25,444 nucleotides of DNA from a virus. The stretch's first letter is position 1. Each line of letters opens with the position of its first letter. The DNA is taken from IMG/VR virus record IMGVR_UViG_3300006112_000050, positions 1 to 25,444 of that record; one strand, given 5' to 3'. Position numbers and translations under genes: made by a program. This document shows positions 1 through 23,833 of this stretch, piece by piece. The notes beneath the pieces are model-generated. The model made no database searches. It worked only from the letters and a program-made list of their open reading frames with translations, and was not told the origin of the DNA.

Positions 1-225
1 GCAGATGGTTATGACGGAAATACGGATCTAGCCTTTTCTATGGTTGAATATCTTAATGATGATTATGAGGGCGGGGAAATAAGCTTTCCTAATCATAACA
101 TCACAATAAAGCCAGAAAAGGGAAGTCTTATTATGTTTCCTTCACAAGATCCGTTTGTTCATGAGGTTAAGCCAATTATTAGTGGTGATAGATACATGTC
201 TACCATATCTTTATGGTCTGTCTAA
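1..225 (+). CDS. 2OG-Fe(II) oxygenase, C-terminal part (5' end outside window)
   Basis: The reading frame is open from base 1, so this is the end of a gene that starts upstream. The 74 visible residues contain the C-terminal half of the double-stranded beta-helix of a prolyl-4-hydroxylase-like 2-oxoglutarate/Fe(II) dioxygenase. There is a DYEGGEISFP strand, a distal iron-ligand histidine in FVHEV (codon 160-162), and a 2-oxoglutarate-binding arginine in GDRYMSTISLW (codon 190-192). The proximal HxD pair would lie upstream and cannot be seen. The DYEGGEI segment is shared with the next gene, so the two look like tandem paralogs. Such enzymes hydroxylate proteins, nucleotides or small molecules; the substrate here is unknown. 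The family call is fairly secure and the function is not. Confidence 0.8.
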   Translation, partial: ADGYDGNTDLAFSMVEYLNDDYEGGEISFPNHNITIKPEKGSLIMFPSQDPFVHEVKPIISGDRYMSTISLWSV

Positions 226-240
226 CTATTAATTGTTTTA

Positions 241-249
241 TGATATAAT
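241..249 (+). promoter_or_regulatory. Extended -10 promoter for the second oxygenase gene
   Basis: TGATATAAT is an extended -10 element (TGn plus TATAAT at 244-249). It lies in the 48-base gap between the two oxygenase genes. The predicted transcript start near 256 leaves a short leader carrying the SD sequence AGGAG (262-266) ahead of the ATG at 274. No convincing -35 is visible. The same motif recurs at several other gene boundaries in the window. Confidence 0.55.
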
Positions 250-273
250 TTAGTTATAAATAGGAGATAAAAA

Positions 274-1116
274 ATGGCATTTTACGATAGACCAGATTGC
301 TTGAATCCATCACCATATGTTGATGAATATGGAACCAAATCAGGAATTTTTATATTTAAAAACATAATACCTCAAGATTTAATAACTAAAATAGAGGATC
401 AGCTTAATAGTTTGCCTGAAGAAAACCCAGTATATGATGATACCTTGATAAGTTGGTACTCAAAGAAAATGACTCCGACTATTGATGGAATCGTTGATTT
501 GTGGGAATTCATTTCAGAATTAATTGGCCCAGAATGGGTAATACATCCACAAAACAATTTGATCCAAGTTAAGCCTGGAGATAACGGAATGTTTATTCAC
601 TCCGATAGCCCAGGAAAAGGTGCATGCAACCTATTGTCTCAGGTGGATGTTTGGAGCACTTGCTGTGAGTTAGACTATGGCGTATGTGCTTACTTTGGAG
701 ATTATGAAGGTGGGGAAATATTCTACCCAGGAGTCAACAAAGATGGAACTCTAAAGAATGACGGCGGGAACATAGATGATTGCTTTGAATACAAACCAGG
801 AAAAGGTGATGTTGTAATACATAGTGCTTTTGCTCCATATGGTCATGGTGTAAGAGAAGTAACATTAGGTAAAAGATATGTATACTCCAACTTCTCCCTA
901 AAAACAATTGATAACCCTGGAACATTTTATAACTATGGAACACCAGAATATTACAAGCAAATAGGAAATAAAACAGAGCAAGATGTAATAAGTTGGATGA
1001 CTCCACTAAGAGAAAATCCTCAATTTACAGAAGAATTGATAAAGATTTATCAAGAATCTGGACTTGAGGGCGAAGAGTTAGCTAAAACATTTTTTAGCGA
1101 CATGACACCAGAATAA
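274..1116 (+). CDS. 2OG-Fe(II) oxygenase (prolyl-4-hydroxylase-like)
   Basis: This 280-residue protein has the full facial triad of a 2-oxoglutarate/Fe(II) dioxygenase: H109-x-D111 in FIHSDSPG, H191 in YGHGVREV, and the 2-oxoglutarate-anchoring R201 in GKRYVYSNFSL. The DYEGGEIFYP strand is typical of the P4H-like branch. The reaction is oxidative decarboxylation of 2-oxoglutarate to succinate coupled to substrate hydroxylation. The substrate cannot be read from sequence. The ATG has a good SD (AGGAG, 262-266) and its own promoter. A region of about 75 residues after the fold, rich in charged residues, may be a substrate or partner domain. All arginine codons checked are AGA, unlike the capsid gene. 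The neighbours are a paralogous oxygenase and a flavin monooxygenase, so this looks like an accessory oxidation cluster rather than virion genes. Confidence 0.85.
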   Translation: MAFYDRPDCLNPSPYVDEYGTKSGIFIFKNIIPQDLITKIEDQLNSLPEENPVYDDTLISWYSKKMTPTIDGIVDLWEFISELIGPEWVIHPQNNLIQVKPGDNGMFIHSDSPGKGACNLLSQVDVWSTCCELDYGVCAYFGDYEGGEIFYPGVNKDGTLKNDGGNIDDCFEYKPGKGDVVIHSAFAPYGHGVREVTLGKRYVYSNFSLKTIDNPGTFYNYGTPEYYKQIGNKTEQDVISWMTPLRENPQFTEELIKIYQESGLEGEELAKTFFSDMTPE

Positions 1117-1121
1117 AATAT

Positions 1122-1913
1122 ATGCGTTTTCATTGGATGAATCGTGGAGACATGTCTTCTGTTGCAGAAATATCTGCATTGTCTGAAAAACTTGAAAAGC
1201 ATGGATATTACTCTGTTTTGCTAACATATCATTCAAAAACTAGAGATTTGTTGTTGAAATCTTTTGGTGCAGCATCAAATGAACAAAAATTAAAATACAT
1301 GTTAGCTATAAGAACATATGCTATAAGTCCAGAATACATGGCTTTAATATGTAGATCTTATAATGAAGAGTTTCCTAATAAATTAATTTTAAATGTTGTT
1401 TCAGGCGATTTGCATCAAAATGAAACTAGCATAGAAGATTTAATATGGATGTCAGGTCATGTAGATACTCCAGGAAAAAGACTTCAGTACACCAGAGACT
1501 GGATGAGCAAATTTCAAGAGCTTTCAAAGAATTACTATCCAGAGATATTTATGGCGGGACATTCAAATATAACTAGGGATATGGCTAATCATTTTGATGC
1601 TACTCACATATCTATGCTGGATATGTATAGAGATTACCTTAAAGATCCCTCTAGAATTATAAATGAAAAGCAATTGGTGTCTTTATCAATTTTGATAAGG
1701 GATTCAAAAGCAGAAGCCAGGGAGTTTGTGCAAAGAAACGCTTTGGGTAATGGGCTTGGTTGGACTTTGTATGGAACAAAAGAAGACGTTTTGGAACAGA
1801 TAAAAGAATTAGAAGAATTAGGGGTTACAGACATATTGATATCTAAGACAACCAATGACACAGAAGAAGATTTGGTTCATAAACTTATAGGAGGTTTAAC
1901 TTGCGACAACTAA
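1122..1913 (+). CDS. Luciferase-like flavin monooxygenase (SsuD/LLM-type)
   Basis: This 263-residue protein resembles the bacterial luciferase-like / alkanesulfonate monooxygenase family of TIM-barrel enzymes using FMNH2 or F420. It opens on the first barrel strand (MRFHWMNRGD). It has the core strand-turn block LAIRTYAISPEYMALICRSYNEEFPNKLILNVVSGD, whose ISP and NVVSGD elements match the SsuD-type pattern. The MAGHSNITRDMANHFDATHI block matches the family's G-S-x-x-A phosphate-binding strand. Its C-terminus (YGTKEDVLEQIKELEELGVTDILI) matches the usual end of the barrel. It is somewhat short for the family. Only 5 bases separate it from the oxygenase stop and no SD is obvious, so it is probably translationally coupled. 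Substrate, and whether it uses FMN or F420, are unknown. No flavin reductase is visible in the window, so reduced cofactor would have to come from the host. Confidence 0.8.
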   Translation: MRFHWMNRGDMSSVAEISALSEKLEKHGYYSVLLTYHSKTRDLLLKSFGAASNEQKLKYMLAIRTYAISPEYMALICRSYNEEFPNKLILNVVSGDLHQNETSIEDLIWMSGHVDTPGKRLQYTRDWMSKFQELSKNYYPEIFMAGHSNITRDMANHFDATHISMLDMYRDYLKDPSRIINEKQLVSLSILIRDSKAEAREFVQRNALGNGLGWTLYGTKEDVLEQIKELEELGVTDILISKTTNDTEEDLVHKLIGGLTCDN

Positions 1914-2098
1914 TAAATGGTGGGGAAGCTGAAGAATTTGATAAGGCTATTGACCTAACAATACATACAAAATGTCCTGAAAAGTGGCTTCTTATTGATA
2001 TGGAGACGGGTGAAGAGTATATTGGATCACCAGTTCCCAACCTTTATGGCAAGTGGAAGCGTGTAAAAACAAAAGATATGGATATTGTGGCAGAATAG
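1901..2098 (+). CDS. Small conserved-looking phage protein, function unknown
   Basis: This 65-residue ORF starts at TTG 1901, inside the last codons of the monooxygenase gene. The start is chosen because a near-perfect SD (AGGAGGT, 1889-1895) sits 5 bases upstream. The sequence has a compact WLLIDMETGEEYIGSP...GKWKRVK core that looks like a small beta-rich fold. It has no membrane segment and no recognisable catalytic motif. I have an impression of similar short W-x-L-I-D-x-x-T-G-E proteins in phage genomes but cannot verify a family. It closes the accessory cluster before a new promoter. Confidence 0.7.
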   Translation: MRQLINGGEAEEFDKAIDLTIHTKCPEKWLLIDMETGEEYIGSPVPNLYGKWKRVKTKDMDIVAE

Positions 2099-2145: not shown

Positions 2146-2475
2146 ATGAAAGTAACACCTATAGACGAAGTTAATTGGGGCATATATGTTTGGCAGATGC
2201 CAGATGGCTCCATTGTAAGAGATGAAGATGACAATACTCTTAACATTCCTGCTGTTCGTGGGGATATTAGCCAAATTAAAAAGCTTAAAAGAGCAGCAAG
2301 AGAACTAGGTTTGGAAGAAGGTCATCCATTATTTTTCTCTGGTCATAGAAGAGTTACTGATGATGAACTTGAAGAACAGAAATCAAGAGCACAGCTAGGC
2401 TTGGTACCAGATCCTCTTGATATGCCAGCTATGATGGAATATGTTAAAGATATGAGGGAGATGGACCTTGGCTAG
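2146..2475 (+). CDS. Hypothetical protein upstream of portal
   Basis: This 109-residue protein has no recognised domain. It opens with a short beta-rich segment (WGIYVWQMPDGSIVRDEDDNTLNIPAVRGD). A basic helix follows (ISQIKKLKRAARELGLEEG), then an acidic C-terminal helix (MPAMMEYVKDMREMDLG). There is no signal peptide or membrane segment. The start is set by the extended -10 element immediately upstream, which suggests leaderless translation. Its last codons overlap the portal start and carry the portal SD, so the two are translationally coupled. Position just ahead of the portal suggests a packaging or head-assembly role, but this is only context. Confidence 0.75.
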   Translation: MKVTPIDEVNWGIYVWQMPDGSIVRDEDDNTLNIPAVRGDISQIKKLKRAARELGLEEGHPLFFSGHRRVTDDELEEQKSRAQLGLVPDPLDMPAMMEYVKDMREMDLG

Positions 2476-4051
2476 ATTAAATGTAGCAGAAGATGATGAA
2501 GACGGCACACAAAAGATTTACACAGGAGAAGATTTTAATCTTGTTGCTAAATCAGAAGAAACCTTTGATGACCCGTTTAATGTAACATGGTCGGAAATCA
2601 AAAAGGCAGAAGGCCTTAATGATAACTTTAGACGCAGAGCAAATAGACTTGAAAAGTCATTTACTGGCGTAGCTGATGCAAAGTCCAAGAAGCTTGATCC
2701 ACTTGATCTTACAGGATATTCTCTATTTCAGATTGTTCAGCCTCCATACAATATCATGTATCTTGCACAACTATATGATGTTTCTCCATATCACCACTCA
2801 GCTGTAAATGCTAAGGCAGCAAACGTTGTAGGACTTGGATATAAGTTTGAGGAAACTTGGGCTACAAAAGAAAAAGTTGAAGCAGCAATGGAAAATCCAA
2901 AGAAGTTGGATAAACTTCGTGGAAAGCTAGAAGAAGCAAAGGAAGATTTAAGAAATTATCTTGAGAGTATGAATTCTGATGATTCATTCATCGAAAATAT
3001 GAAAAAGGTATTTATTGACTTGGAATCAACTGGAAATGCTTATCTTGAAGTAGGTCGTACTGCTAATGGCAAGATTGGTTATTTGGGGCATATCCCAACA
3101 ACCACTATGCGTATTCGTCGTCACCGTGATGGATTTGTTCAAGTTGTTTATAACCGTTATACATTTTTTAGAAACTTCGGAGATACAGAAACTCCAGATC
3201 AAATAGGAACGGATCCACAGCCAAATGAAGTCATTCACTTTAAAGTATTTTCTCCATCAAATACATATTATGGTATTCCAGACATTTTGTCTGCCAAAAA
3301 TGCCCTTGCTGGTGATGAGTTTGCTCAGCGTTTCAATCTAGATTATTTTGAGAATAAAGCTGTTCCACGTTACATCATTACTGTAAAGGGTGCAAAACTT
3401 ACAGCAGATGCAGAGCGTAAATTGCTTGAATTCTTTCAAACTGGTTTGCGTGGAAGAAATCATAGAACTCTTTACATCCCACTTCCATCAGATGGCGAGA
3501 ATGCTCGTGTTGAATTCAACATGGAACCAATTGAAGCGGGAGTTCAAGATTCTTCGTTCAAGAACTATGCTATTGAAAACAGAGATCGTATTCTTATTGC
3601 TCACCGTGTTCCAGTATCAAAGATAGGTATGCCTCAAGGCGTATCTTTGGCGAATGCTAAGGATGCTGACAAAACATTTAAAGAGCAAGTATGTCGTCCA
3701 AGACAAGAAGAGCTTGAATACAAGATTAACAAAATCATCGGAGAAATTACAGATGCATTTGTACTTAGATTCAATGAACTTGCTTTGACAGATGAAGAAA
3801 CTCAGTCTCGTATTGATGATCGTTATCTTAAAGATCAAGTACTTCTTCCTAATGAAGTTCGTGCACGTAAGGGATTGCCTCCAATTTCTACTGGAGATGC
3901 TGTTCTTGTTTTAAATCCAAAGCAAGCTTCTGATTCCATGTCAGATGCCAGTGGAAATAAAACACGTGATCAAAATAGAACATTAAATGCTCCAGATAAA
4001 ATGGGATCCGCTCGTAATGCTAAGGGCGAGGGACCACAAGAAGGAAACTAA
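2468..4051 (+). CDS. Portal protein
   Basis: This 527-residue protein has the features of a phage portal, the dodecameric ring at the capsid vertex through which DNA enters and leaves. Seen in order are a wing/stem segment (PPYNIMYLAQLYDVSPYHHSAVNAKAANVVGLGY, about residues 89-123), a helical stretch of 150-190, and the conserved VIHFKVFSPSNTYYGIPDILSAKNAL block. FFENKAVPRYI-like and GVSLANAKDADKTFKEQVCRPRQEELE segments follow. The C-terminal tail is polar and disordered-looking. The closest known type is the PBSX/phage_portal group, by recall. The start is TTG 2468 with SD GAGGGAG (2454-2460), overlapping the previous gene by 8 bases. The protease, scaffold and capsid genes downstream fit the call. 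Confidence 0.9.
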   Translation: MARLNVAEDDEDGTQKIYTGEDFNLVAKSEETFDDPFNVTWSEIKKAEGLNDNFRRRANRLEKSFTGVADAKSKKLDPLDLTGYSLFQIVQPPYNIMYLAQLYDVSPYHHSAVNAKAANVVGLGYKFEETWATKEKVEAAMENPKKLDKLRGKLEEAKEDLRNYLESMNSDDSFIENMKKVFIDLESTGNAYLEVGRTANGKIGYLGHIPTTTMRIRRHRDGFVQVVYNRYTFFRNFGDTETPDQIGTDPQPNEVIHFKVFSPSNTYYGIPDILSAKNALAGDEFAQRFNLDYFENKAVPRYIITVKGAKLTADAERKLLEFFQTGLRGRNHRTLYIPLPSDGENARVEFNMEPIEAGVQDSSFKNYAIENRDRILIAHRVPVSKIGMPQGVSLANAKDADKTFKEQVCRPRQEELEYKINKIIGEITDAFVLRFNELALTDEETQSRIDDRYLKDQVLLPNEVRARKGLPPISTGDAVLVLNPKQASDSMSDASGNKTRDQNRTLNAPDKMGSARNAKGEGPQEGN

Positions 4052-12253: not shown

Positions 12254-12526
12254 TTGGAGTCTGAAGCCTTCTTGCTCGGTCATTGGAAAAACTTTGATGA
12301 GCTAGAATCTTCACTTTCGCTTGAAGAGCTAACAGCTTTGATAGATTTTTCAAGAAAGAAAGATCTTGAAGATAAAAGATTTAGTGCAGCACTACAAGGT
12401 GTTGAACTAGATGAACCGCAAGAATCAGTTAGTGACATAGCCGATCTTAAAGGATATGCTGCTGGTAAAGAAGGATTTGGAATCGGTTTAGGTTTAGGTT
12501 TTATGTCAATAGGGGGTGACGATTAA
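12209..12526 (+). CDS. Tail assembly chaperone T extension, expressed as the GT fusion
   Basis: This is the -1 frame after the slippery site. The full product is join(11907..12209,12209..12526), 206 residues. The extension begins PSGSSSSWDELDLRSLESEAFLLGHWKNFDELESSLSLEELTALI. Its WDELD...FLLGHWK...LESSLSLEELTALI pattern is that of actinobacteriophage-type chaperone extensions. It contains a Gly-rich end (GFGIGLGLGF). A TTG at 12254 could be taken as an independent start but has no SD and would cut the conserved block. The stop overlaps the tape measure ATG by one base (TAATG), which couples their translation. The role is to recruit tube subunits to the tape measure and chaperones during tail assembly. 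Confidence 0.85.
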   Translation, partial: PSGSSSSWDELDLRSLESEAFLLGHWKNFDELESSLSLEELTALIDFSRKKDLEDKRFSAALQGVELDEPQESVSDIADLKGYAAGKEGFGIGLGLGFMSIGGDD

Positions 12527-15500
12527 TGGCAAACATTGAGTTAAATGTAGTTGCATTAGGAGACTTTTCAGTAGTCAATGATGCTATTGCAAAACTCAAG
12601 GCTAACATCGCATCCCTTAATGCATCTCTTGCAGGAGCAACTGGTGCATCTTTTGATAAAACTGCTGCTAGCGTAAAAACTCTTTCAAATGAATTTTCTT
12701 CAGCACTTACAAACAGTGGTTTGTTTACAAACCAAACAGTTTCTTTACAAAATGAAACAGAAAAGTTTGGACAAGCACTTCAAAAAGGAACATTAAGTTT
12801 AGGTACTTATTATCAAATTTTAACAAAACGTCAAGGCGAAGCAACTGATTCTGTAAAAGCTTTGGCGGTAGAACAAACTAAGTTACAAAATTCCGTAATA
12901 ATGGCTGACCCATCTAAGTCGGGCTTTTATTCTGTATTTACACCAAAGAGTATTGATGCTGTAGCAAATGCAACAAAGATTGCTGCAAACCAACAAAACA
13001 TTTATAACCTTGCTCTTAGAACAGGTTCCAACGAATTAATCAACTGGGGTAAAAATACCCAATGGGCTGGTCGTCAGCTAACAGTAGGTATGGCAATACC
13101 ATTGATGGTATTTGGACAACAAGCTGTATCTGCTTTTGATTCTGTAAACTCAGCATTGACTCAACTTCAAAAAGTTTATGGTGAAGGGTTAACTCCTCCA
13201 AGTCAAGACTCTATTAATCAAATTTCACAACAAGTTTTGGATCTAGGTAAAAGCATGGCTGCTACCTTAGGTATATCTCAAGAATTTACTGTTCAGGTAG
13301 CTACACAATTTGCTGCTATGGGCAAGCAAGGTCAAGATCTTTTAACAATTACTGAGCAAACTGATAGACTTGCTAAACTTGGTAACCTTGATCAAACAAC
13401 TGCAACAAATGCTGTTATTGCTTTGCAAAATGTTTATAAGATGAATACTACGGAACTTGCAGACGCTGTTAACTACTTTGGTGCTATGCAGAAGCAAACA
13501 TCTTTGTCTATGAGTGATTTGGTTCAATCTGAATCAAGAATTGGTCCAATCATTGAAGAGCTTGGTGGAACATATAAAGATTCTGCTGTAATGGTTCTTG
13601 CTATGAAAGAAGCTGGTGTGCCAGCTGCAAAATCTGCTAACGCACTTAAAGCTGCTATGGCATCTATCATTAACCCAACATCAGCAGCTACAAAAGAATT
13701 TGCATCTTTTGGAATTAACCTAAATAATATTAAGGACCAAAAGGGTCCAGTAAATATGATCCTTGCATTGCAAGAAGCATTAAAACCTTTGAGCAAAATG
13801 CAACAAGAACAGCTTATTGACAAGTTGTTTGGTAAGTATCAATTTGGTAATATCACAGCCCTTATTCAAAACTTAGGAACAGCGGGATCACAAACTGTAA
13901 ATGCTTTACAGGTTGCTAATGCAACATCAGGACAATTGGCAACTCTTGCTAACCAAGAAATTACACAAGTTACATCTTCTCCATCAGCACAATGGCAAAA
14001 AGCACTTGCAACATTTAAAGCAGATTTGTACCCAATAGGACAAGATATCCTTAAGCTTGGAACTAAATTGCTTGAATTTGGAAATAAAGTTTCTAAAGTA
14101 TTCCAAGGTCTTCCAGGCCCAGTAAAATTCTTCCTTGGACTTTTGGCGGGACTTACTGTAATAGCTGGACCTCTTCTTATGTTAACAGGTCTTATGGCTA
14201 ACTTTGTAGGTAACATATTAAAGGGTGTAATTAATCTTAAAGATTTGATAAGTGGTGGTAAAAGTTTAAGGCAATTATTGACACCAGAACTTATTGCTGC
14301 ACAAAATGCAAGTAGTCTTTTTGCAGATGGTATAAAAGGTGATATTGATCAAGTACAATTATTGACTCAAGCAATTACAGATTTGACAGCAAAACTTCAA
14401 ATAATGCAAGATCAAATGAACATTGGTGCTGGAATTGATAGTCTTAAATCAGCAGTAGGTGCAACAGCACAAGTTGAAACAAGCATATTTGAACAAATGG
14501 CATTACCAGGATTTGCAGATGGCGGAATAATATCTGGCCCTGGGTCGGGAACTTCAGACAGTATTCTTGCAAGAGTTTCTAATGGTGAAACAATTCTTAC
14601 AGCAGAACAAACAAGAAAAAATGCTGGCGTAATTACAGATATTATTTTAGGAAGAGAAATTCCTGGCTATATGGCTGGTAATGTAGATGAAGAAGATCTT
14701 GGACCAGGAGAGTATCTTGCACATCATAAATCAGATATACCAACTAAATTGGCAAACATACCAGGGTTGATGGATGCAACTTCTGGAGATTATGAAAAAA
14801 TTCAAAATAAATTAAGTTCATCTTTTGAAGAATTAGGAAAACTTTTTGACACCAGCTTTGATCCAAAAAAATGGATAGGACAGATCAGAACTAATTTGTC
14901 ACATTTTACAGAAGGTATATCTAACTGGACTAAAAGTGGCACAAAGATTTATAGATCAAAAGAACTTTATGGCCTATCTGGAATAGAAAATGCACCATTG
15001 TCAACTTTTTCTTCACATTTTAAAAATGGTAAAGAAAATGATCCAGTAAGAGATTATTATAACAGGGTTATTGAATCTGTAAAAGGTGATATTGATGAAG
15101 CAGATATAGAGCACATAAAAAATGGAGGACAACCAATAACCGAAGCACAACAATTGTTGTGGAGTAAAATAACTGGTCGAGTTAAACAAGATATTATAAG
15201 TACAGTAAATACTGGTAGTCCTGTTACAGAAGGCGACATGCCACTTCTTGAAACAGTGCAAAAAGGTCCAAGAAAAGGAAAGTTTAGATTAAAATCTGCC
15301 ACCTCAGGAGGTTATGGTGAAGGCGGAGCACTTTTTGCTGCTCACGATGTTGTAGAAGCTAGAAGAACAGGAGAGCTAAATCCAGTAGAAGCCATGAGGC
15401 TTGATAACTGGGCACCAGGTAAGAACGCTCCTGGCGATTCAAGTGAAAAATACGTAGGGGCTTTAGAAAGACAAATAAATGTATTAAAAACTTCTAATCC

Positions 15501-18162
15501 TCAAAATATAGAAGCTATCAAAAAAGCAGAAAGTCAATTACAAAATGCAATAGAGGCAGCCAAACTTGATGGCTATGCAGAACAATTAAAAGATTTAGAA
15601 GAAGCGGGTAAAAAAGAAACTCAAGAGTATAAGAATATAGCACAACAAATTGCAGCGGGTATTGATCAAGGAATAACAGACTCGCTGGTGCATGCAAGTG
15701 ATACTTCAAAGCAATATATAAATGGAATATTGGAAGAGATGCAAAGTACTGCACGAATTCATTCTCCTTCAAGATTATTTGCAGATGAAGTCGGTGAACC
15801 TATAGGTCAAGGTATTACTCAAGGTATTCAAAGTTCTATGAGTTCAACTGGTTCTGCTATACATGAAGAACTATTAAGTTTTATTCCACAAATTGAATCA
15901 TTTGCTCCAATGACAGAAGAAGCTTCTCAGCAAATTGGTAATTCAATGTTGGCTGGAATTACCGTTCCACTTAATACATTAGGTGGGGCAGTTCAAGAAA
16001 AATTCATGCAAATGGCTGCACAAATTACAGCCGAAGGTCCTGCATTAACTGAAGCAATTGTTGCACCTATAGAAGCTGCAAATGTTGAAATTCAAGATAT
16101 GCAAATGGAACTTCCGCTTTCATCTTGGCAAACACCAGATTTAACACCTCAAGTTGGTCCAATGATGGCAAATGGTGGATTCTATTCTAATGAAATTGCT
16201 CCAGGAATAAGCGGTACTGCTGAAGAAGCAGCAAATGCAGATGCTGAAGCAACATCTAAGTTAGCTAAGGCAAAAGAATCTTTATTAAATAAAGTTAAAA
16301 AAGAAGACGGTTCACTAAGAGGCTCTGTAAAGGGTGGATTAGGAATGGCTACGATGATGGGTGGACAAGCAATTGCTCAAGCCCTTCCGCAAGGTAGCGT
16401 TTTAGCTTCAGCAGCAACCAATGTAGGAACATATGCGGGTATGGGTATGATGTTCGGACCAGAAGGTGCTGCAGTCGGTGCTGCTATTGGAGGCGTAGTA
16501 ACAGCATTCCAAGCAATAAGCACTTCTATGCGTCAAAGTTCTAATGCAATAAAGAGTTCGTTTACAACAAGTGCAGAAGCTGCACAACAATTTAATGTTC
16601 ATTTTGAACCTTTGGCGGTATATGATTTTGCTAAGCCTACAGATGGATTAAGTAAGCATACACAATCAATTTCAGATAATATGGGTGCTGTTGAAAAATT
16701 AACTCAAGCTTATCTAAATTCATCAAATCAAATGGACAAGGATGCTTTAGCTAAACTTAAAGGAGATACCAAGGATCAGGCATTGACGGCATCACTTGAA
16801 ACTGTTGCAGCAGATACCTCAACAGGACAAATGAATTTTCAAGAAGCTTTGGCAGATGCTATTTCAAGACTTACAGCAGCTGGCGCAGGCACTGAAGAAA
16901 TAATGCAAATAAAAAATGAAATAATTGCTGCAAATGCTGGTAAAAGCGGAAAAGATACTAATGACGCAACTGGACTATTCGGTGCATATAATGCAGGAAA
17001 TGTAGGAATAGGTAATAATGGAGAAGTTCTTACCATGGATGATAAGAATATTAATGCTGCGGGAATGGGTCAGACTTTACTTCAATTAACTCAAACTGGA
17101 TTAGCTAACACTATAGCTCAATTTGTACAAATGTCCAAAGAATCTCCTGATTCTTACAAAAAATTATTATCTGATCAAGCCGTTTATGGTAATCTTGCTA
17201 ATCAAGTTCAAGGTGATAATGCTTGGCAAGATGCTTATACAGCTATGGCAACTAATAGCAAAACTGGTCAAGACACAACTAATGTCCAGGCTTTGACTGA
17301 AGCAATGGCAGAATATAACAGTGGGTATTTTAGCTCAGCTGGACATTCAGTAACAGAGCTTGAAGATGCAATGAAAAAGGGGCCTGATGCTCTTGAAGCT
17401 TTTGTTAAAGAAAATTCAGCAGCAATAACAAAATGGCAAGCAGATAATACAGCTGCAGTTGCAGGTAATCCCCCACCTCCACCTCCACCAACTCCTCCAC
17501 CAACTGGTTTAGGAGGCGTACCAACTGGTACTCCTCAAGAAAAAACTTTGCAAGCACAAATTCAAACATCTCTTGATGCTCAAAATGCACAATTAAAGAT
17601 TGTTAAAGATCAACTTACCACACAACAAAAAATTGCTGCAGAAGCAAAAGCACAGTTGCAATATCAACAACAAATTACTGGGTTGCAGAATGATATGAAA
17701 ACTGCTATGATTAGTGGTAACTATTTGCAAGCAGCAACATTAAAACAACAAATTTCAGGTGCAAAAGTTGACTTTAATGCTTCTTCAGTTCAGCAAAAAT
17801 TGCAAGATCAATCTGATGCTATGTCAGCAAATGCAGATGCAATTAACCAAGGTTTGCAAGATTTGAAAAATGCTATTGCAAATGGTATTACGGATTTAAG
17901 TCAGTTGCCAGCTTCTGTTTCAGCAGCAAAAGCATTAGGAACAATTAATGCACAGGCCGTAAGTTCTGGAATAGCAACTGGTCAAGGACCTACTGTAACA
18001 ACTGTTATTCAGGTGACGGGAACTGTGACGGGGACTTCAACTACAAGCTCTCATCCAAATACTACATCTACTGTTCAAACAACTAATGTTAATCCATTAG
18101 CTACAAAAATAAATCCAGGTAATACTGGAAGTACAAGATCAACAAATATGGGAGTATCATGA
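12526..18162 (+). CDS. Tape measure protein
   Basis: This 1878-residue protein sets tail length. The N-terminal 180 residues are helical. Residues about 190-430 match the TP901/PhageMin_Tail core (ESRIGPIIEELGGTYKDSAVMVLAMKEAGVPAAKSANALKAAMASIINP). A hydrophobic span lies at about 528-570. About 660-705 has the common tape-measure motif GGIISGPGSGTSDSILARVSNGE, and about 1079-1100 has HSPSRLFADEVGEPIGQGI. Between these, about 718-990 is a block I do not recognise. About 1265-1335 is Gly/Ala-rich and hydrophobic (GMMFGPEGAAVGAAIGGVV). A polyproline run at about 1648-1660 precedes a C-terminal coiled coil. If the whole chain spans the tube at about 0.15 nm per residue, the tail would be near 280 nm, an upper bound. 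No peptidase motif is certain. Confidence 0.92.
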   Translation: MANIELNVVALGDFSVVNDAIAKLKANIASLNASLAGATGASFDKTAASVKTLSNEFSSALTNSGLFTNQTVSLQNETEKFGQALQKGTLSLGTYYQILTKRQGEATDSVKALAVEQTKLQNSVIMADPSKSGFYSVFTPKSIDAVANATKIAANQQNIYNLALRTGSNELINWGKNTQWAGRQLTVGMAIPLMVFGQQAVSAFDSVNSALTQLQKVYGEGLTPPSQDSINQISQQVLDLGKSMAATLGISQEFTVQVATQFAAMGKQGQDLLTITEQTDRLAKLGNLDQTTATNAVIALQNVYKMNTTELADAVNYFGAMQKQTSLSMSDLVQSESRIGPIIEELGGTYKDSAVMVLAMKEAGVPAAKSANALKAAMASIINPTSAATKEFASFGINLNNIKDQKGPVNMILALQEALKPLSKMQQEQLIDKLFGKYQFGNITALIQNLGTAGSQTVNALQVANATSGQLATLANQEITQVTSSPSAQWQKALATFKADLYPIGQDILKLGTKLLEFGNKVSKVFQGLPGPVKFFLGLLAGLTVIAGPLLMLTGLMANFVGNILKGVINLKDLISGGKSLRQLLTPELIAAQNASSLFADGIKGDIDQVQLLTQAITDLTAKLQIMQDQMNIGAGIDSLKSAVGATAQVETSIFEQMALPGFADGGIISGPGSGTSDSILARVSNGETILTAEQTRKNAGVITDIILGREIPGYMAGNVDEEDLGPGEYLAHHKSDIPTKLANIPGLMDATSGDYEKIQNKLSSSFEELGKLFDTSFDPKKWIGQIRTNLSHFTEGISNWTKSGTKIYRSKELYGLSGIENAPLSTFSSHFKNGKENDPVRDYYNRVIESVKGDIDEADIEHIKNGGQPITEAQQLLWSKITGRVKQDIISTVNTGSPVTEGDMPLLETVQKGPRKGKFRLKSATSGGYGEGGALFAAHDVVEARRTGELNPVEAMRLDNWAPGKNAPGDSSEKYVGALERQINVLKTSNPQNIEAIKKAESQLQNAIEAAKLDGYAEQLKDLEEAGKKETQEYKNIAQQIAAGIDQGITDSLVHASDTSKQYINGILEEMQSTARIHSPSRLFADEVGEPIGQGITQGIQSSMSSTGSAIHEELLSFIPQIESFAPMTEEASQQIGNSMLAGITVPLNTLGGAVQEKFMQMAAQITAEGPALTEAIVAPIEAANVEIQDMQMELPLSSWQTPDLTPQVGPMMANGGFYSNEIAPGISGTAEEAANADAEATSKLAKAKESLLNKVKKEDGSLRGSVKGGLGMATMMGGQAIAQALPQGSVLASAATNVGTYAGMGMMFGPEGAAVGAAIGGVVTAFQAISTSMRQSSNAIKSSFTTSAEAAQQFNVHFEPLAVYDFAKPTDGLSKHTQSISDNMGAVEKLTQAYLNSSNQMDKDALAKLKGDTKDQALTASLETVAADTSTGQMNFQEALADAISRLTAAGAGTEEIMQIKNEIIAANAGKSGKDTNDATGLFGAYNAGNVGIGNNGEVLTMDDKNINAAGMGQTLLQLTQTGLANTIAQFVQMSKESPDSYKKLLSDQAVYGNLANQVQGDNAWQDAYTAMATNSKTGQDTTNVQALTEAMAEYNSGYFSSAGHSVTELEDAMKKGPDALEAFVKENSAAITKWQADNTAAVAGNPPPPPPPTPPPTGLGGVPTGTPQEKTLQAQIQTSLDAQNAQLKIVKDQLTTQQKIAAEAKAQLQYQQQITGLQNDMKTAMISGNYLQAATLKQQISGAKVDFNASSVQQKLQDQSDAMSANADAINQGLQDLKNAIANGITDLSQLPASVSAAKALGTINAQAVSSGIATGQGPTVTTVIQVTGTVTGTSTTSSHPNTTSTVQTTNVNPLATKINPGNTGSTRSTNMGVS

Positions 18163-19376
18163 CATATCAAATAGCACAAGGTGTGCAAGTATCAATAGAT
18201 AATAATAACTGGTATGCACTTACAGATCATAATCGCCAGCCAATCAATATTACATATAACTTGATCGAACAAGCAGACAGAATGGCAAATGGAACAATGC
18301 GTAAATATGTTATTGCCAGAAAGTTTGTTCATAAAATTGAATGGAAAGATGTTCCAACTCTTGATAGCTACCTTGTAGATTATAATGGCGGGGCATCAAC
18401 TGTTACTACCACAAATAATGCAACTACACAAACAAATACACAGGCTAATACAAAAAATATATATGTTCCAAGTGTAGCAAATATTAGTGGTTCTTTTGTT
18501 GCCTACCTTGGAGATGGCGGAAGTCATACAGTTATACCTTTGACAAGCAATGTAACTCCTTTACCAAGAGTAGGTGAACTTGTAATTATTTCTGGATTGA
18601 CTGGCAGTAGTAGCGGTTATCTTCAAAATGCACAATATTTTGTAACCTCAGTTGCTGATGGACAAATTACTATATCTACGCCAAATGTTCCATTTGGACC
18701 AATAGAGCCAGTAAATGGTACAATATCTTGGATTGCAGGAATACCCGTTGCTGTGGCTTTGCCAGGAACACATTTCCCAGAACAATCTGCTGGAACGGCT
18801 TCTCAAACTTGGTTTGGAACAGGTTTGAATTCAGATCAATTAGCAGCGGTATTAAATGTTGGCGATACCATTACTATTTTTGGATCTTCAAATGGATCTT
18901 TTGATGGAGTATTTACAGTAAGAGCAATTTATACAAACTGCTTCCTTGTTGATCTAGTAACTCCAAGCATTGTTGGTATGAGTTATAATACTCATTATAT
19001 ACAGGGAAGTTATCCAAATAATGTTGCAACTCCAGTTACAGTTACAGCTCCCGTCACAACTTCCTTTCAAGGACCTTACGGACCAGCTTGGCTAAAAGCT
19101 TTTTATGAGGGTAACTACAGCAATCCAGTTTATGTTAGATTTATCTTTGCACAGCAAGAGCCTTCTGTAAATAACTTGCCAATTCAAAACACATATACAT
19201 CTTCACTTCAAAATTCCCTAGGAACAAATCCAGCCACAGGAAATCCCTGGAACGTATATCAAGCCTTTATGACTACTTTTACTTACGATGTGACAAAAAG
19301 AATGAAAGGCAACGCATGGACTGGCGGAGTGGGTTATGATCATGTTGATGTTACAATAGAGTTTACGGAGGTATAA
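18159..19376 (+). CDS. Distal tail / minor tail protein with internal beta modules
   Basis: This 405-residue protein overlaps the tape measure stop by ATGA. The N-terminal about 80 residues (VQVSIDNNNWYALTDHNRQPINITYNLIEQADRMANGTMRKYVIARKFVHKIEWKDVP) and C-terminal about 90 residues (WLKAFYEGNYSNPVYVRF...YQAFMTTFTYDVTKRMKG...HVDVTIEFTEV) look like two halves of a distal-tail (Dit-like) beta domain. Residues about 95-310 appear to be an insertion containing two similar modules, around 135 (RVGELVIISGLTGSSSG) and 232 (NVGDTITIFGSSNGSFDG), each followed by strands. Position between tape measure and hub fits the ring at the tail tip. The module function, perhaps surface display or host contact, is inference. 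Confidence 0.7.
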   Translation: MTYQIAQGVQVSIDNNNWYALTDHNRQPINITYNLIEQADRMANGTMRKYVIARKFVHKIEWKDVPTLDSYLVDYNGGASTVTTTNNATTQTNTQANTKNIYVPSVANISGSFVAYLGDGGSHTVIPLTSNVTPLPRVGELVIISGLTGSSSGYLQNAQYFVTSVADGQITISTPNVPFGPIEPVNGTISWIAGIPVAVALPGTHFPEQSAGTASQTWFGTGLNSDQLAAVLNVGDTITIFGSSNGSFDGVFTVRAIYTNCFLVDLVTPSIVGMSYNTHYIQGSYPNNVATPVTVTAPVTTSFQGPYGPAWLKAFYEGNYSNPVYVRFIFAQQEPSVNNLPIQNTYTSSLQNSLGTNPATGNPWNVYQAFMTTFTYDVTKRMKGNAWTGGVGYDHVDVTIEFTEV

Positions 19377-22300
19377 TGCTTAATACACAGTACTCTAATG
19401 TTTTTGCGGGTAAAAATCCTGCAAGTTCTGTAACACTTGTTCCAATAGCTTCTGCTGAATGGAATCAAAACATATATAATCAGCCTTACATAACCTTTGC
19501 TGGAACGGGATCTTCAGAAACAATAGGTAATCCCTCTATAACAGTAACAGATGTTACGGGTACAGCAAATGCTTTTATAGGCAATGTAACAACTAAAAGC
19601 TTTAGCATGACAGGAACACAGCATTCTGTCTCATATACATTTTCTACACCAAGCCATTCTCCTGCTTATAAAATTATTACTTATATTCAAACTGATTCAG
19701 ATTTGCCTATTATGGCAAACGCATACGCTAAAGGATCTGCAACACAATTTGGATCATCATCAATAGACATTAGCTCATTTGGATATGTAAAGTTAATTAC
19801 ATATGTTGGATCTTCAGGTTCAACAGATACTATATCTAACCTAACATATACAATTAATTTGAATACATATGATTCAGCAGATCTAACTGATCCGATAAAT
19901 ATTTATTATACCCAGCCAGAAGTGTTTCCTATTTCTTACAACAGTTATCAAAACGATTCTTTGTGGCCTACAGATAGCGTGTTTGGTTCGTTTAGGCCTG
20001 GAGAGTCATATGTGCCAAGCGGTAACGTATTTTCTTGGCATTCTAATAGCCAACCGTTTGATAATTCATTCAGACAAATAACAACGGAGACAGTTATTGG
20101 TCATAGTCAACTTTACGCACCAGTTACTGCAATTACACAAAACCCACAATTTGGTTTAGCAACTCCTCCACAACCTATGTATAAAAATGTTATGCCTAGC
20201 GATATGGCTCCTTATAAGTATTTTGTTTCTGATACATCTACTCATACGCCAAATCCAAGTCTTACTGCTATATATCAGCCAAATATCTATGCTAACAAAC
20301 TAGTGCTTAAATTTAATACAACACAAACAGTTCCAATAATTGATGTTGTTTTGGACGGGACTACAATAGCACACAACATATCTGTTCCTTCAAATGGAGT
20401 GTTAGTTCTTTATTACAATGGATCATCATGGACAACTTCCCCTTGGTCAAAAATGCCAGTATTTTCTTCAACTGGTCAGATTAGTATTTTGAAGAGTTTT
20501 GGCAAGATTACTGTAACTCAAACTGCTCAAGTAAATAATAATCCTTTCAATTCTTACACAAGTCCTTATGTAGAAGCAGACTTGACTAGAATGCAACTTA
20601 TTGAAGTTTCACCAAGAATTGAAGTTGATATAACTCCATTTATAATGCAGTTTGATATTACAAAACAACTTGACTCGAAGAACAACTATATTCCTATTTC
20701 TTCTATCAACCCAAATCAGGCTGACATAACTCTTTCAGCTATCCCCTTGTCTAATAACAATGCTCCCGTTCCAATATTTTCTAGTCAGAATCAAAACTCA
20801 GTTTTGTACAACATGATGAAGAAAAATGTAAAATTCTATCTTGGTTGGAACTTTGAAAGTTATTTCCAAAATGGAGAAATAACGCCAAACACTTATATTC
20901 CAGCAGGAGTTTACTATGCAAACACTTGGGATGAAACAGATATTCAAACAGTAAAAATTGGCTGCTATGATATTGTAAATTATTTACAAACTGTACCAGC
21001 TCCTGATTATGTTGCAAGTAATAAGTCTATATTTGATATTATCACCAACATACTAGATTTGGCGGGATATACAGATTACGACTACGATAGCCTTTATAAA
21101 GTAACAAATGATAAGTATACCGCTATGGATATGTACTATTATTTCTGTAACTCACAATCAGCAACCCTATATGACGCATTATCAGAACTTTTCTTGGCTC
21201 ATCAAATTGGTGCATATATTGATGAGTGGGGAGTTATGAAATTCTTAAGCCTTGCAAATATCATGAGATATCAAGATGTTACAGTAGAGTTTGATGATGC
21301 TAGCGTAATTCAAGGTGGATATTCTATTACAAATAAGCAGAAGCCTGGATCTATTACAATTAGCTATCAAGAGCCAAAGGTTACACAATCTCTTGCATTA
21401 CAAAATGCCACAAATCCAGGTGCTCAAAATTCACCATCATTTATCTATACAACATCAAATGAAGTTTTGTGGACACAAAAAGATGCAGATGCAGTAGGAT
21501 CAAATTATCTTTCAACATCAATGCTTGAAAAAGATAACTTCTTCCAAATGAACAACAACTCTTTGCTTGACATATTTCATACATACCTATTGAATACAGA
21601 CGGCTATGCAGTAATTGAAAATGAAGTAGTCTCATTCTTATACAAAGAATATTTGCTAGGTCAAACTTCTAGTTTGCAAGACATTACCAAAGATTATGAT
21701 CCAGATACCAATACATTTGGAGTATACGAATATGTTTATCCAAAGACTGATCTTGAACTAGCTTCATTTGTTGGTCAATTTGTAAAAAAGCATCAAGCGG
21801 GACTTTTAATAAATAATGGCTTACCTGTTAAAGGAAAAACTGGATTATTAGTGCCTCCATCCCCAGTAGACGTAACAATTGTACCTACTGGAAAAATTTC
21901 TAATATTAGAAGAGGAATGTTCGGAACTGTACCATCAGATCATAAAATAATAGAACAGTTGTCAGATAAAAATCTAACAGCTGAAAACTGTGCTACAGCC
22001 ATAGTTCAAGATATTTTGGCTAGTTCAGATAATCCAAAAATAACAAAGATTCAAGTATCACCAAATAATTCAGGCTGGACTTATATTTATAATGCAAATG
22101 TAGTTAATCCAGGATTCAGAACATATTCTGCTAAATTTGATTTGAATGCAGGATCACCAATATCTGCAGGCGTATTCTTTAGATCAACCGATCTTGAATA
22201 TCGTGTAGAATTAATTCAGGTATCAAATGCTGTTGCATCAAACATATCTGCACCACCTCCGCCACCTGCAACTCCTACACCACCACCACCATATGGTTCT

Positions 22301-23833
22301 TCACCTTTGCCACCACCTCCTCCAACGCCTCCATATTATACTCCTCCACCACCTCCGCCACCCGCAACTCCTACACCACCACCTCCAGTTTACACTGTAC
22401 CACCACCATATGGTAATCCGCCACCACCTCCGCCACCGCCACCATCCGATGGTTACGTGGTTCCGCCACCTCCACCACCTCCTGTAACATATAGCAATCC
22501 CGAAACATCTTCTAACTCTCAGTATAGTTATTTCATTACTGTTGTTAAAAAAGATTTGAATAGCGGTGGATCAACTATGGTTGCTATGGCAGAAATTGAT
22601 GGTGTAGTCTTTGATGTTCAGTCTAACTGGGAAAAAGTTTTAACAGCAGTTCCAGGAACTGATACAACAGCGTATTCATATACATATGCTACAGATCAAG
22701 AGTATATATTAAAAGTTGTAACTAGTTTTTCTGATGGAACAGACGGAGAAATAGAAGGACAGCTTATAGATGTATTTTTGAATAACATTCAAATTACTGG
22801 ATGGCAAATACCAGATCCTATTCCAAATAATGCATTGGTTACTGATGATGGAGTTACATCATCTAGATATTGGAAGTCTCCAAATAGAAACTTGGTTAGT
22901 GGTTTGGTTCAAAAGCCTAATATATTAGCTGGAACTTCAGAGCATTTGTTTACAGGGCATTTTGGATTCTGCACAACACTTGCCCCTTCAATGCCAGCTG
23001 GATTTACTTACGGCACTTCAGCTCTTCCAACTGTTTCTTCTAATCTTAGAGAAATTTATGCTTGTGAAAAAGCTTTAGATGAAAGAAGCATTAACTATTG
23101 GTATCAAGATACTGAGTTTTTAAATGGTTTGATACAAAACCAAAACTTGTTCTCTAGATATAGAAGCTATATGATGCAGACAAACCCAGAAGTAACTGGA
23201 ATAAATTATTATGATGTTCAGTATCAAACACCAGCAGCTGTAAGTGCTGATGTTTTGCCAATTGAATATTTGTGGTTTTATTTCCCAGGAGATCAACCTT
23301 TTGATCAGCAATACTATCAGCAACAAATGGTTGATGAATATTCACTGTCTTATTCAACTCCTATAAATACAGGATTTAGGGCAAGACTTGCAATTGCAAA
23401 TAACGTAGGCCATATGGTTTATTTGACACATGCTTCTGATAGTATTAATCAATTTACTGTAAGCTTAAACCTATGGACACATGAAGCAATTGCTCCATCT
23501 GATGCACAAACAATTACTAGGGTTTTGGATGCATCAAACAAATCAGAGGTTATCCAAGTTGACTCAGCATGGATACAGTCAAGAGAAACTGCCAATAGGC
23601 TTATTGATGTTATAGCCATAGGAAATGATGGATTCTCAAGAGATACTTCTATCCAAGTCTTTGGAAATCCTCTGATTCAGGTCGGAGACATAGTTAACTT
23701 AAACTACAGTTTGGCGGGAATTCAGAATGCTAAATACCTAGTGCATGGAGTTAACAATTCATATGATAAGGGATTAAAGACAACATTAACCCTTAACTCT
23801 TTGAATAAAGCAGTAAATCCGACAAATTCATAA
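19376..23833 (+). CDS. Large tail hub / minor tail protein with polyproline insert
   Basis: This 1485-residue protein starts at ATG 19376, sharing a base with the previous stop and with SD GGAGG just upstream. Residues 1-400 are beta-rich and include GESYVPSGNVFSWHSNSQPFDNSFRQI. Residues about 405-780 look like a tail-hub region (LIEVSPRIEVDITPFIMQFDITKQLD... GYTDYDYDSL... LYDALSELFLAHQIGAYIDEWGVMKF). Residues about 895-955 and 1045-1140 look like two halves of a concanavalin-like beta sandwich, split by a polyproline segment at about 958-1040. The C-terminus (DSAWIQSRETANRLIDVIA...FGNPLIQVGDIVNLNY) matches the closing hub domain common in siphovirus Tal/gpJ-like proteins. It probably forms the tail tip that contacts the host. 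Confidence 0.75.
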   Translation: MLNTQYSNVFAGKNPASSVTLVPIASAEWNQNIYNQPYITFAGTGSSETIGNPSITVTDVTGTANAFIGNVTTKSFSMTGTQHSVSYTFSTPSHSPAYKIITYIQTDSDLPIMANAYAKGSATQFGSSSIDISSFGYVKLITYVGSSGSTDTISNLTYTINLNTYDSADLTDPINIYYTQPEVFPISYNSYQNDSLWPTDSVFGSFRPGESYVPSGNVFSWHSNSQPFDNSFRQITTETVIGHSQLYAPVTAITQNPQFGLATPPQPMYKNVMPSDMAPYKYFVSDTSTHTPNPSLTAIYQPNIYANKLVLKFNTTQTVPIIDVVLDGTTIAHNISVPSNGVLVLYYNGSSWTTSPWSKMPVFSSTGQISILKSFGKITVTQTAQVNNNPFNSYTSPYVEADLTRMQLIEVSPRIEVDITPFIMQFDITKQLDSKNNYIPISSINPNQADITLSAIPLSNNNAPVPIFSSQNQNSVLYNMMKKNVKFYLGWNFESYFQNGEITPNTYIPAGVYYANTWDETDIQTVKIGCYDIVNYLQTVPAPDYVASNKSIFDIITNILDLAGYTDYDYDSLYKVTNDKYTAMDMYYYFCNSQSATLYDALSELFLAHQIGAYIDEWGVMKFLSLANIMRYQDVTVEFDDASVIQGGYSITNKQKPGSITISYQEPKVTQSLALQNATNPGAQNSPSFIYTTSNEVLWTQKDADAVGSNYLSTSMLEKDNFFQMNNNSLLDIFHTYLLNTDGYAVIENEVVSFLYKEYLLGQTSSLQDITKDYDPDTNTFGVYEYVYPKTDLELASFVGQFVKKHQAGLLINNGLPVKGKTGLLVPPSPVDVTIVPTGKISNIRRGMFGTVPSDHKIIEQLSDKNLTAENCATAIVQDILASSDNPKITKIQVSPNNSGWTYIYNANVVNPGFRTYSAKFDLNAGSPISAGVFFRSTDLEYRVELIQVSNAVASNISAPPPPPATPTPPPPYGSSPLPPPPPTPPYYTPPPPPPPATPTPPPPVYTVPPPYGNPPPPPPPPPSDGYVVPPPPPPPVTYSNPETSSNSQYSYFITVVKKDLNSGGSTMVAMAEIDGVVFDVQSNWEKVLTAVPGTDTTAYSYTYATDQEYILKVVTSFSDGTDGEIEGQLIDVFLNNIQITGWQIPDPIPNNALVTDDGVTSSRYWKSPNRNLVSGLVQKPNILAGTSEHLFTGHFGFCTTLAPSMPAGFTYGTSALPTVSSNLREIYACEKALDERSINYWYQDTEFLNGLIQNQNLFSRYRSYMMQTNPEVTGINYYDVQYQTPAAVSADVLPIEYLWFYFPGDQPFDQQYYQQQMVDEYSLSYSTPINTGFRARLAIANNVGHMVYLTHASDSINQFTVSLNLWTHEAIAPSDAQTITRVLDASNKSEVIQVDSAWIQSRETANRLIDVIAIGNDGFSRDTSIQVFGNPLIQVGDIVNLNYSLAGIQNAKYLVHGVNNSYDKGLKTTLTLNSLNKAVNPTNS
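22252..22383 (+). repeat. Direct repeat in the polyproline-coding segment
   Basis: A 36-base unit at 22252-22287 is repeated at 22348-22383 with one mismatch by eye. It begins ACCACCTCCGCCACC and ends CCTACACCACCACC. The 96-base period is 32 codons. Both copies encode PPPPPATPTPPPP. The C-rich + strand contrasts sharply with the AT-rich surroundings. Similar proline codon runs continue to about 22490. Confidence 0.85.

Follow-up and report, generated by a model that had tools for sequence, protein, structure and literature searches.

The window, which is the whole stretch of DNA analysed, corresponds to the entire IMG/VR record of 25,444 bp and is probably a fragment. Three genes lie close together on the plus strand before the portal gene: the end of a 2OG-Fe(II) oxygenase gene (OG4, 1-225), a second oxygenase gene of this type (OG5, 274-1116) and the gene of a luciferase-like protein (LLM, 1122-1913). 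The preliminary description had placed two oxygenases and a flavin monooxygenase at this point. The genes are real and share one strand, but the first oxygenase is truncated to its C-terminal 74 aa, which match PF13640 with E=2.6e-10 (41.6 bits, cut-off 27). The full-length OG4 has 218 aa and is intact in the contig L002 (2701-3357). OG5 (280 aa) carries the triad H109/D111/H191 together with R201, and LLM (263 aa) is predicted to fold as an SsuD/MsuD-like TIM barrel that lacks the residues for binding sulfonate. The 3' end of the LLM gene is overlapped by that of p65 (1901-2098, plus strand), a small protein of phrog_4098 (unknown function). The oxidation cluster described for positions 1-2098 is real; p65 is not an oxygenase.

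The relatives of this phage retain p65 both with and without LLM. The following gene on the same strand codes for the conserved protein p109 (2146-2475; phrog_9394, unknown function), found in nearly all portal relatives, and marks the right edge of the cargo site described below. The portal protein (2468-4051, plus strand; PF04860, E=9e-33) served as the anchor for comparing relatives and is 55% identical to the portals of Streptomyces phages (Stanwilliamsviridae), whose genomes have ~125-130 kb. Further along the plus strand, a poly-Pro, extensin-like segment (22253-22492; 20 PP per 80 aa) is located inside a tail protein (19376-23833) and is a candidate hydroxylation substrate. A short poly-Pro run (17470-17508) occurs inside a long, tape-measure-like tail protein (12526-18162).

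The oxygenase array and the fibre-portal interval

The contig L002 is nearly identical to the window in their overlap and extends it upstream. The gene order in L002 is DUF6065, five tandem 2OG genes (OG1-OG5), LLM, p65, p109 and portal, so that three further 2OG genes sit just outside the window, beyond OG4 and OG5. Both genes first noticed are 2OG oxygenases, but together with LLM they close off a longer series, five or more 2OG genes with DUF6065, which is carried by lake-water phages. In relatives this array is placed directly downstream of a fibre gene dense in FFxPP repeats. The array contains five 2OG genes in L002 and six or seven in L007, L008 and L010. In L007 and L008 an extra 2OG gene is found ahead of DUF6065, preceded by FFAPPG-repeat fibre genes that end in a Hint-like domain.

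The content of the interval between fibre and portal is variable. In L009-L012 the array and p65 are present and LLM is absent. The portal of L005 is 100% identical in amino acids to that of the window (2468-4051), but the array upstream of it is another one, with four genes and neither OG5 nor LLM; other portal relatives have wholly different genes in the interval. The pairing of an identical portal with another array indicates that the fibre-portal stretch is a recombining cargo site in which LLM is optional.

The four residues H109, D111, H191 and R201 of OG5, reported at the outset as a complete set, are all present and invariant in four relatives, which share 70-73% identity with OG5 of the window. 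The match of OG5 to PF13640 is weak (14.1 bits, cut-off 27), and profile-profile comparison by hhalign relates it to the OG4 family, the clear 2OG family of the array, with 95.9% probability. The dN/dS of OG5 is about 0.07-0.18, and its structure model is poor (pLDDT 50). The PDB profile comparison covered OG4, OG3 and OG1, and by this measure the closest solved sequence relatives of all three are prolyl hydroxylases: prolyl 4-hydroxylases for the OG4 family profile (A5; E=4e-8) and prolyl 3-hydroxylase 1 for OG3 and OG1 (E=1e-8 and 8e-5). The best matches are the Bacillus anthracis prolyl 4-hydroxylase (3itq, 5hv0) and the human-type prolyl 3-hydroxylase 1 (8k0e). These relationships are distant (E=1e-4 to 1e-8), with mainly the double-stranded beta-helix core matching, and the inspected phage sequences have an arginine at the 2OG-binding position, unlike the solved prolyl hydroxylases. 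The HxD...H...R/K spacing is found in 206 of the 213 2OG proteins from repeat loci, among the matches listed.

Association of the arrays with proline-rich repeats

In the portal-anchored set, dense Pro-Pro repeats occur in all seven phages with at least four 2OG genes (window/L002, L005, L008, L010, L015, L119 and L121, the last identified by way of OG5), and the nine relatives with a smaller number of 2OG genes all lack them. The FFxPP fibre of the window itself lies off the contig, and only the poly-Pro tail protein is visible. The long poly-Pro insert of this tail protein is shared with the array phage L010 and is absent from the orthologues of the examined non-array records and of the array phage L008.

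The association was also examined in the reverse direction, by scanning IMG/VR with a DNA pattern for three FFxPPx units, ignoring oxygenases, which gave at least 78 loci. Among the matches listed, the 78 FFxPP loci contain 224 2OG genes in 703 kb. Of the two controls, the loci with the motif LTNKTLT, taken from fibre genes of this kind, have 24 such genes in 669 kb, and the portal relatives have 12 in 760 kb. Since the 2OG profile had been refined with hits from repeat loci, the comparison was repeated on whole records with Pfam's own PF13640. All 48 whole repeat records among the matches listed are positive, with a median of 5 genes (range 1-15), and 45 of them have three or more. On the other hand, 35 of 37 comparison records have 0-2 such genes, and the two exceptions, with 8 and 10, are those with (FFPP)n-type fibre repeats. 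Fourteen of the 37 are portal relatives picked after they were known to lack the array, and the remaining 23 are LTNKTLT records that were not picked on 2OG content. Within these 23, three or more PF13640 genes are found in both records with Pro-rich repeats and in none of the 21 without them. A different Pro-rich protein (EPPAEEPPVI) in L097 has no 2OG gene within 16 kb.

The companion gene DUF6065 is present in 54 of the 78 FFxPP loci among the matches listed, versus 1 of 80 control loci. DUF6065 is a family of unknown function, exemplified by L015:2955-3656. Separately, a sulfotransferase-like protein (c67) and an Asp/Asn-hydroxylase-like protein (OG44, PF05118) were observed together in the same 12 of the 78 loci, among the matches listed (L202, L218, L231, L241, L245 and seven others); the sulfotransferase is in no control locus.

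The variable fibre-portal region, and in particular the combination of the same portal protein with other cargo in L005, would also fit a set of independent accessory genes gathered at a recombination hot spot. The 2OG enzymes would then act on host metabolism, 2OG levels, nucleic acids or host proteins, with a positional link to the fibre. Such roles have a counterpart in T4-like cyanophages, with up to five 2OG genes per genome, for which 2OG drawdown and DNA repair were proposed (PMC3037559). The cyanophage genes belong to the same PHROG (PHROG 61) as the genes described here, and no link to proline repeats is reported for them in that work. This explanation does not, however, predict that arrays track repeats (control records without Pro-rich repeats never have more than two PF13640 genes), nor that a tail gene distant from the array would have poly-Pro inserts, and it is considered unlikely.

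Common descent also has to be weighed. Many repeat phages have genes in common, and grouping by shared genes collapsed the repeat loci into few linked groups; p values calculated for the association are for that reason purely descriptive. In addition, 27 of the 48 repeat records among the matches listed bear a portal of this family, with 41-74% identity. The association is therefore partly one of descent. Descent as the sole cause is disfavoured by two observations. Relatives with the same portal family but without repeats have no arrays, and the 205-kb G105 and G044 have no match to the window-type portal, yet both have 2OG genes and DUF6065 together with a Pro-rich fibre. G105 also carries sheath-like and RecA-like genes, as read by eye.

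The luciferase-like protein and its neighbours

LLM scores 22.5 bits against PF00296, below the cut-off of 27.9, which its relatives in L199 (30.6 bits) and L109 (109.2 bits) exceed. The SsuD-like character given to it in the preliminary description agrees with its match to the SsuD profile TIGR03565 (E=2.5e-8) and with its predicted structure. The AlphaFold2 model, built with eight phage relatives, has eight strands (pLDDT 83, pTM 0.84), and the closest matches found by Foldseek are SsuD, MsuD and SfnG (probability 1.00, E about 1e-11, TM-score about 0.75), followed by the F420-dependent KvPepI, which is of similar length. The model places LLM, a divergent luciferase-like protein, among the eight-stranded alpha/beta (TIM) barrels typical of LLM proteins, and the flavin-type barrel anticipated earlier was recovered by structure prediction. 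The same fold is predicted for A0A6J7WN64 and A0A6J7WQ01 from uncultured Caudovirales phages (TM-score 0.84 and 0.70; identity 28% and 22%), so that phage LLM proteins had already been named, without an assigned function.

Several flavin-site positions are kept between LLM and SsuD/MsuD: those matching MsuD A75, R77, N104 and S178 are invariant across the eight phage proteins, a pattern compatible with binding of reduced FMN or F420. LLM is nevertheless about 100 residues shorter, and the sulfonate-binding residues and loop are absent. MsuD R225 aligns to S187 of LLM, W195 aligns to a Leu/Met position, and the R296 loop is missing. In MsuD, W195, R225 and R296 bind the sulfonate and each is essential (PMC8234197). 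On these three residues, a role of LLM as sulfonate monooxygenase was rejected.

These data bear on the sulfonate or sulfur scavenging that had been suggested for the cluster. On that view the infected host would gain sulfite, set free by LLM as an SsuD-like alkanesulfonate monooxygenase and by TauD-like 2OG enzymes. The best fold matches of LLM are in line with it, and tauD is among the genes proposed for freshwater viruses (PMC9469726). Some LLM genes also have DUF2061 neighbours, and APS kinase occurs in 4 of the 14 LLM-bearing records. The function of APS kinase, however, is in sulfation and not in the use of sulfonates, which turns the last point against scavenging. The matches of the 2OG genes are to PF13640 and prolyl hydroxylases instead of TauD. 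The 14 LLM-bearing records, some of which are fragments, yielded no flavin reductase of the PF01613 family; the search covered PF01613, SsuE/MsuE-type NADPH-FMN reductases belong to another family, and a host enzyme could serve. With the sulfonate residues of MsuD not conserved and PF01613 absent from these records, sulfonate scavenging did not hold up and is regarded as highly improbable. A fold or a name alone is no ground for calling LLM or 2OG genes sulfur-cycling auxiliary genes.

The LLM genes of four phage types are 45-57% identical, with dN/dS of about 0.15-0.43, which argues for purifying selection on the product, though dS is near saturation. Relatives of LLM sought with conserved peptides in 84,980 bacterial and archaeal genomes gave no confirmed case, and the window's LLM and DUF6065 had no match in annotated phages (INPHARED). 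Distant LLM matches in INPHARED were set aside as probable bacterial DNA: they come from one unannotated Pseudomonas phage record and from "Acinetobacter phage MD-2021a" (ssuD names). The entries of the latter (CAKLQF/CAKLQH) have several ssuD genes and resemble pieces of a bacterial genome.

The co-occurrence of oxygenase and luciferase-like genes expected from the window extends to related phages. An OG5-type 2OG gene immediately adjoins LLM in five phage types (window, L006/L007, L008, L199 and the 205-kb G105) and is one gene away in a sixth (L121). The co-location is beyond chance, and the conserved pairing supports the linked chemistry suggested in the preliminary description, whatever its reaction may be. 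Among the matches listed, 7 of the 48 repeat records contain LLM; of the comparison records, one of the two that are Pro-rich has it and the other 35 lack it.

Relatives of LLM also have other neighbours. They adjoin NodU-type carbamoyltransferase and SGNH-like genes in L086-L104 and L107, DUF2061-like genes in L426-L428 and, in some cases, nucleotidyltransferase-like genes. APS kinase adjoins LLM in L432 and lies near it in L108 and L121, without being general in LLM phages, and a sulfotransferase-like gene adjoins LLM in L109-L111. The APS kinase, DUF2061 and sulfotransferase-like genes near LLM (L108, L121, L432, L109-L111) may reflect a phage-encoded sulfation. LLM does not necessarily act on the fibre: most array phages lack it, and in other settings it is found next to carbamoyltransferase, APS kinase or sulfotransferase-like genes. 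Two further observations concern these loci: L086-L104, L107 and L092/L093 form a separate phage group in which the LLM relative is near carbamoyltransferase, SGNH-like and terminase-like genes, and in L108:10513-11268 the APS kinase is fused to a nucleotidyltransferase-like domain.

Proposed maturation of the fibre

The reading favoured by the association of arrays and repeats is modification of virion proteins, one of the options of the preliminary description. With moderate confidence, the cluster is interpreted as a cassette for prolyl hydroxylation of virion proteins, the fibre among them, with an optional flavin-type enzyme. The analysis establishes the fold, the motifs, the linkage, the gene content and the association with repeats, from which the proline target, the catalysis and the LLM reaction are inferred. 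Proline is proposed as the target because the nearest relatives of the enzymes are prolyl hydroxylases and because of the repeat association. The tandem 2OG-Fe(II) oxygenases, at least five, would hydroxylate proline in fibre and tail proteins of the same phage, at dense FFxPP or poly-Pro repeats; the genes of these proteins are beside or near the array. The several paralogues may each be dedicated to particular prolines, to residues next to them or to one of a series of steps. LLM would be optional and as a rule linked to a single 2OG subfamily (OG5). It probably takes reduced flavin (or F420) from the host and may oxidise a residue or an attached group in the same pathway.

The neighbours of the LLM relatives (NodU-type carbamoyltransferase, SGNH-like, nucleotidyltransferase-like and sulfotransferase-like genes), as well as the glycosyltransferase-like genes of some repeat loci, would also suit enzymes that modify a glycan or surface polymer on virion or host, the Pro-rich repeat merely carrying the site on the fibre. 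Most repeat loci among the matches listed lack a carbamoyltransferase, SGNH-like or nucleotidyltransferase match, and the array enzymes are closest to peptidyl-proline hydroxylases; a glycan target is accordingly judged improbable. A broader version of prolyl hydroxylation of the fibre is put forward more tentatively, as a possibility. In a multi-enzyme oxidative maturation, arrays of prolyl-hydroxylase paralogues would act on peptidyl residues of FFxPP repeats together with DUF6065, the sulfotransferase-like and Asp/Asn-hydroxylase-like proteins and, in some phages, a flavin-type monooxygenase. The fibre would be rich in hydroxyproline, perhaps further oxidised or sulfated, and LLM would be a peptide-modifying enzyme. 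No precedent for a peptide-acting LLM was found in the literature searched.

A viral prolyl 4-hydroxylase is known from PBCV-1 (Eriksson 1999, cited in PMC9301287). This 2OG oxygenase is likewise virus-encoded and was proposed to act on proline-rich viral proteins. PBCV-1 is a eukaryotic large DNA virus, known for one characterised enzyme, whereas the present systems are tailed phages in which 4-10 paralogues stand in tandem and are associated with DUF6065 and FFxPP fibres. The literature search returned no paper on DUF6065, nor on phage prolyl hydroxylases with Pro-rich fibres. As far as it shows, three things are new: the link between arrays and repeats, the constant company of DUF6065 and the pairing of OG5 with LLM.

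The 2OG oxygenases of phages are common in aquatic viromes, and for the most part their substrates have been guessed at (2OG drawdown, DNA repair, taurine use). Their close association with Pro-rich fibre repeats provides a concrete, testable candidate substrate and suggests that fibres with hydroxyproline may be widespread among freshwater phages.

A minor observation concerns the architecture of the FFxPP fibre proteins (L007:1234-3276, L010:2057-4078, L204:9169-10257, L218:1-567). Fibronectin-type fn3 domains precede the repeat, and the proteins often continue into a Hint/intein-like C-terminal domain (CIxxDT...GDxLLT). The Pfam support for the Hint domain in the relatives is weak, and the domain points to a possible autoprocessing of the fibre after the repeat.
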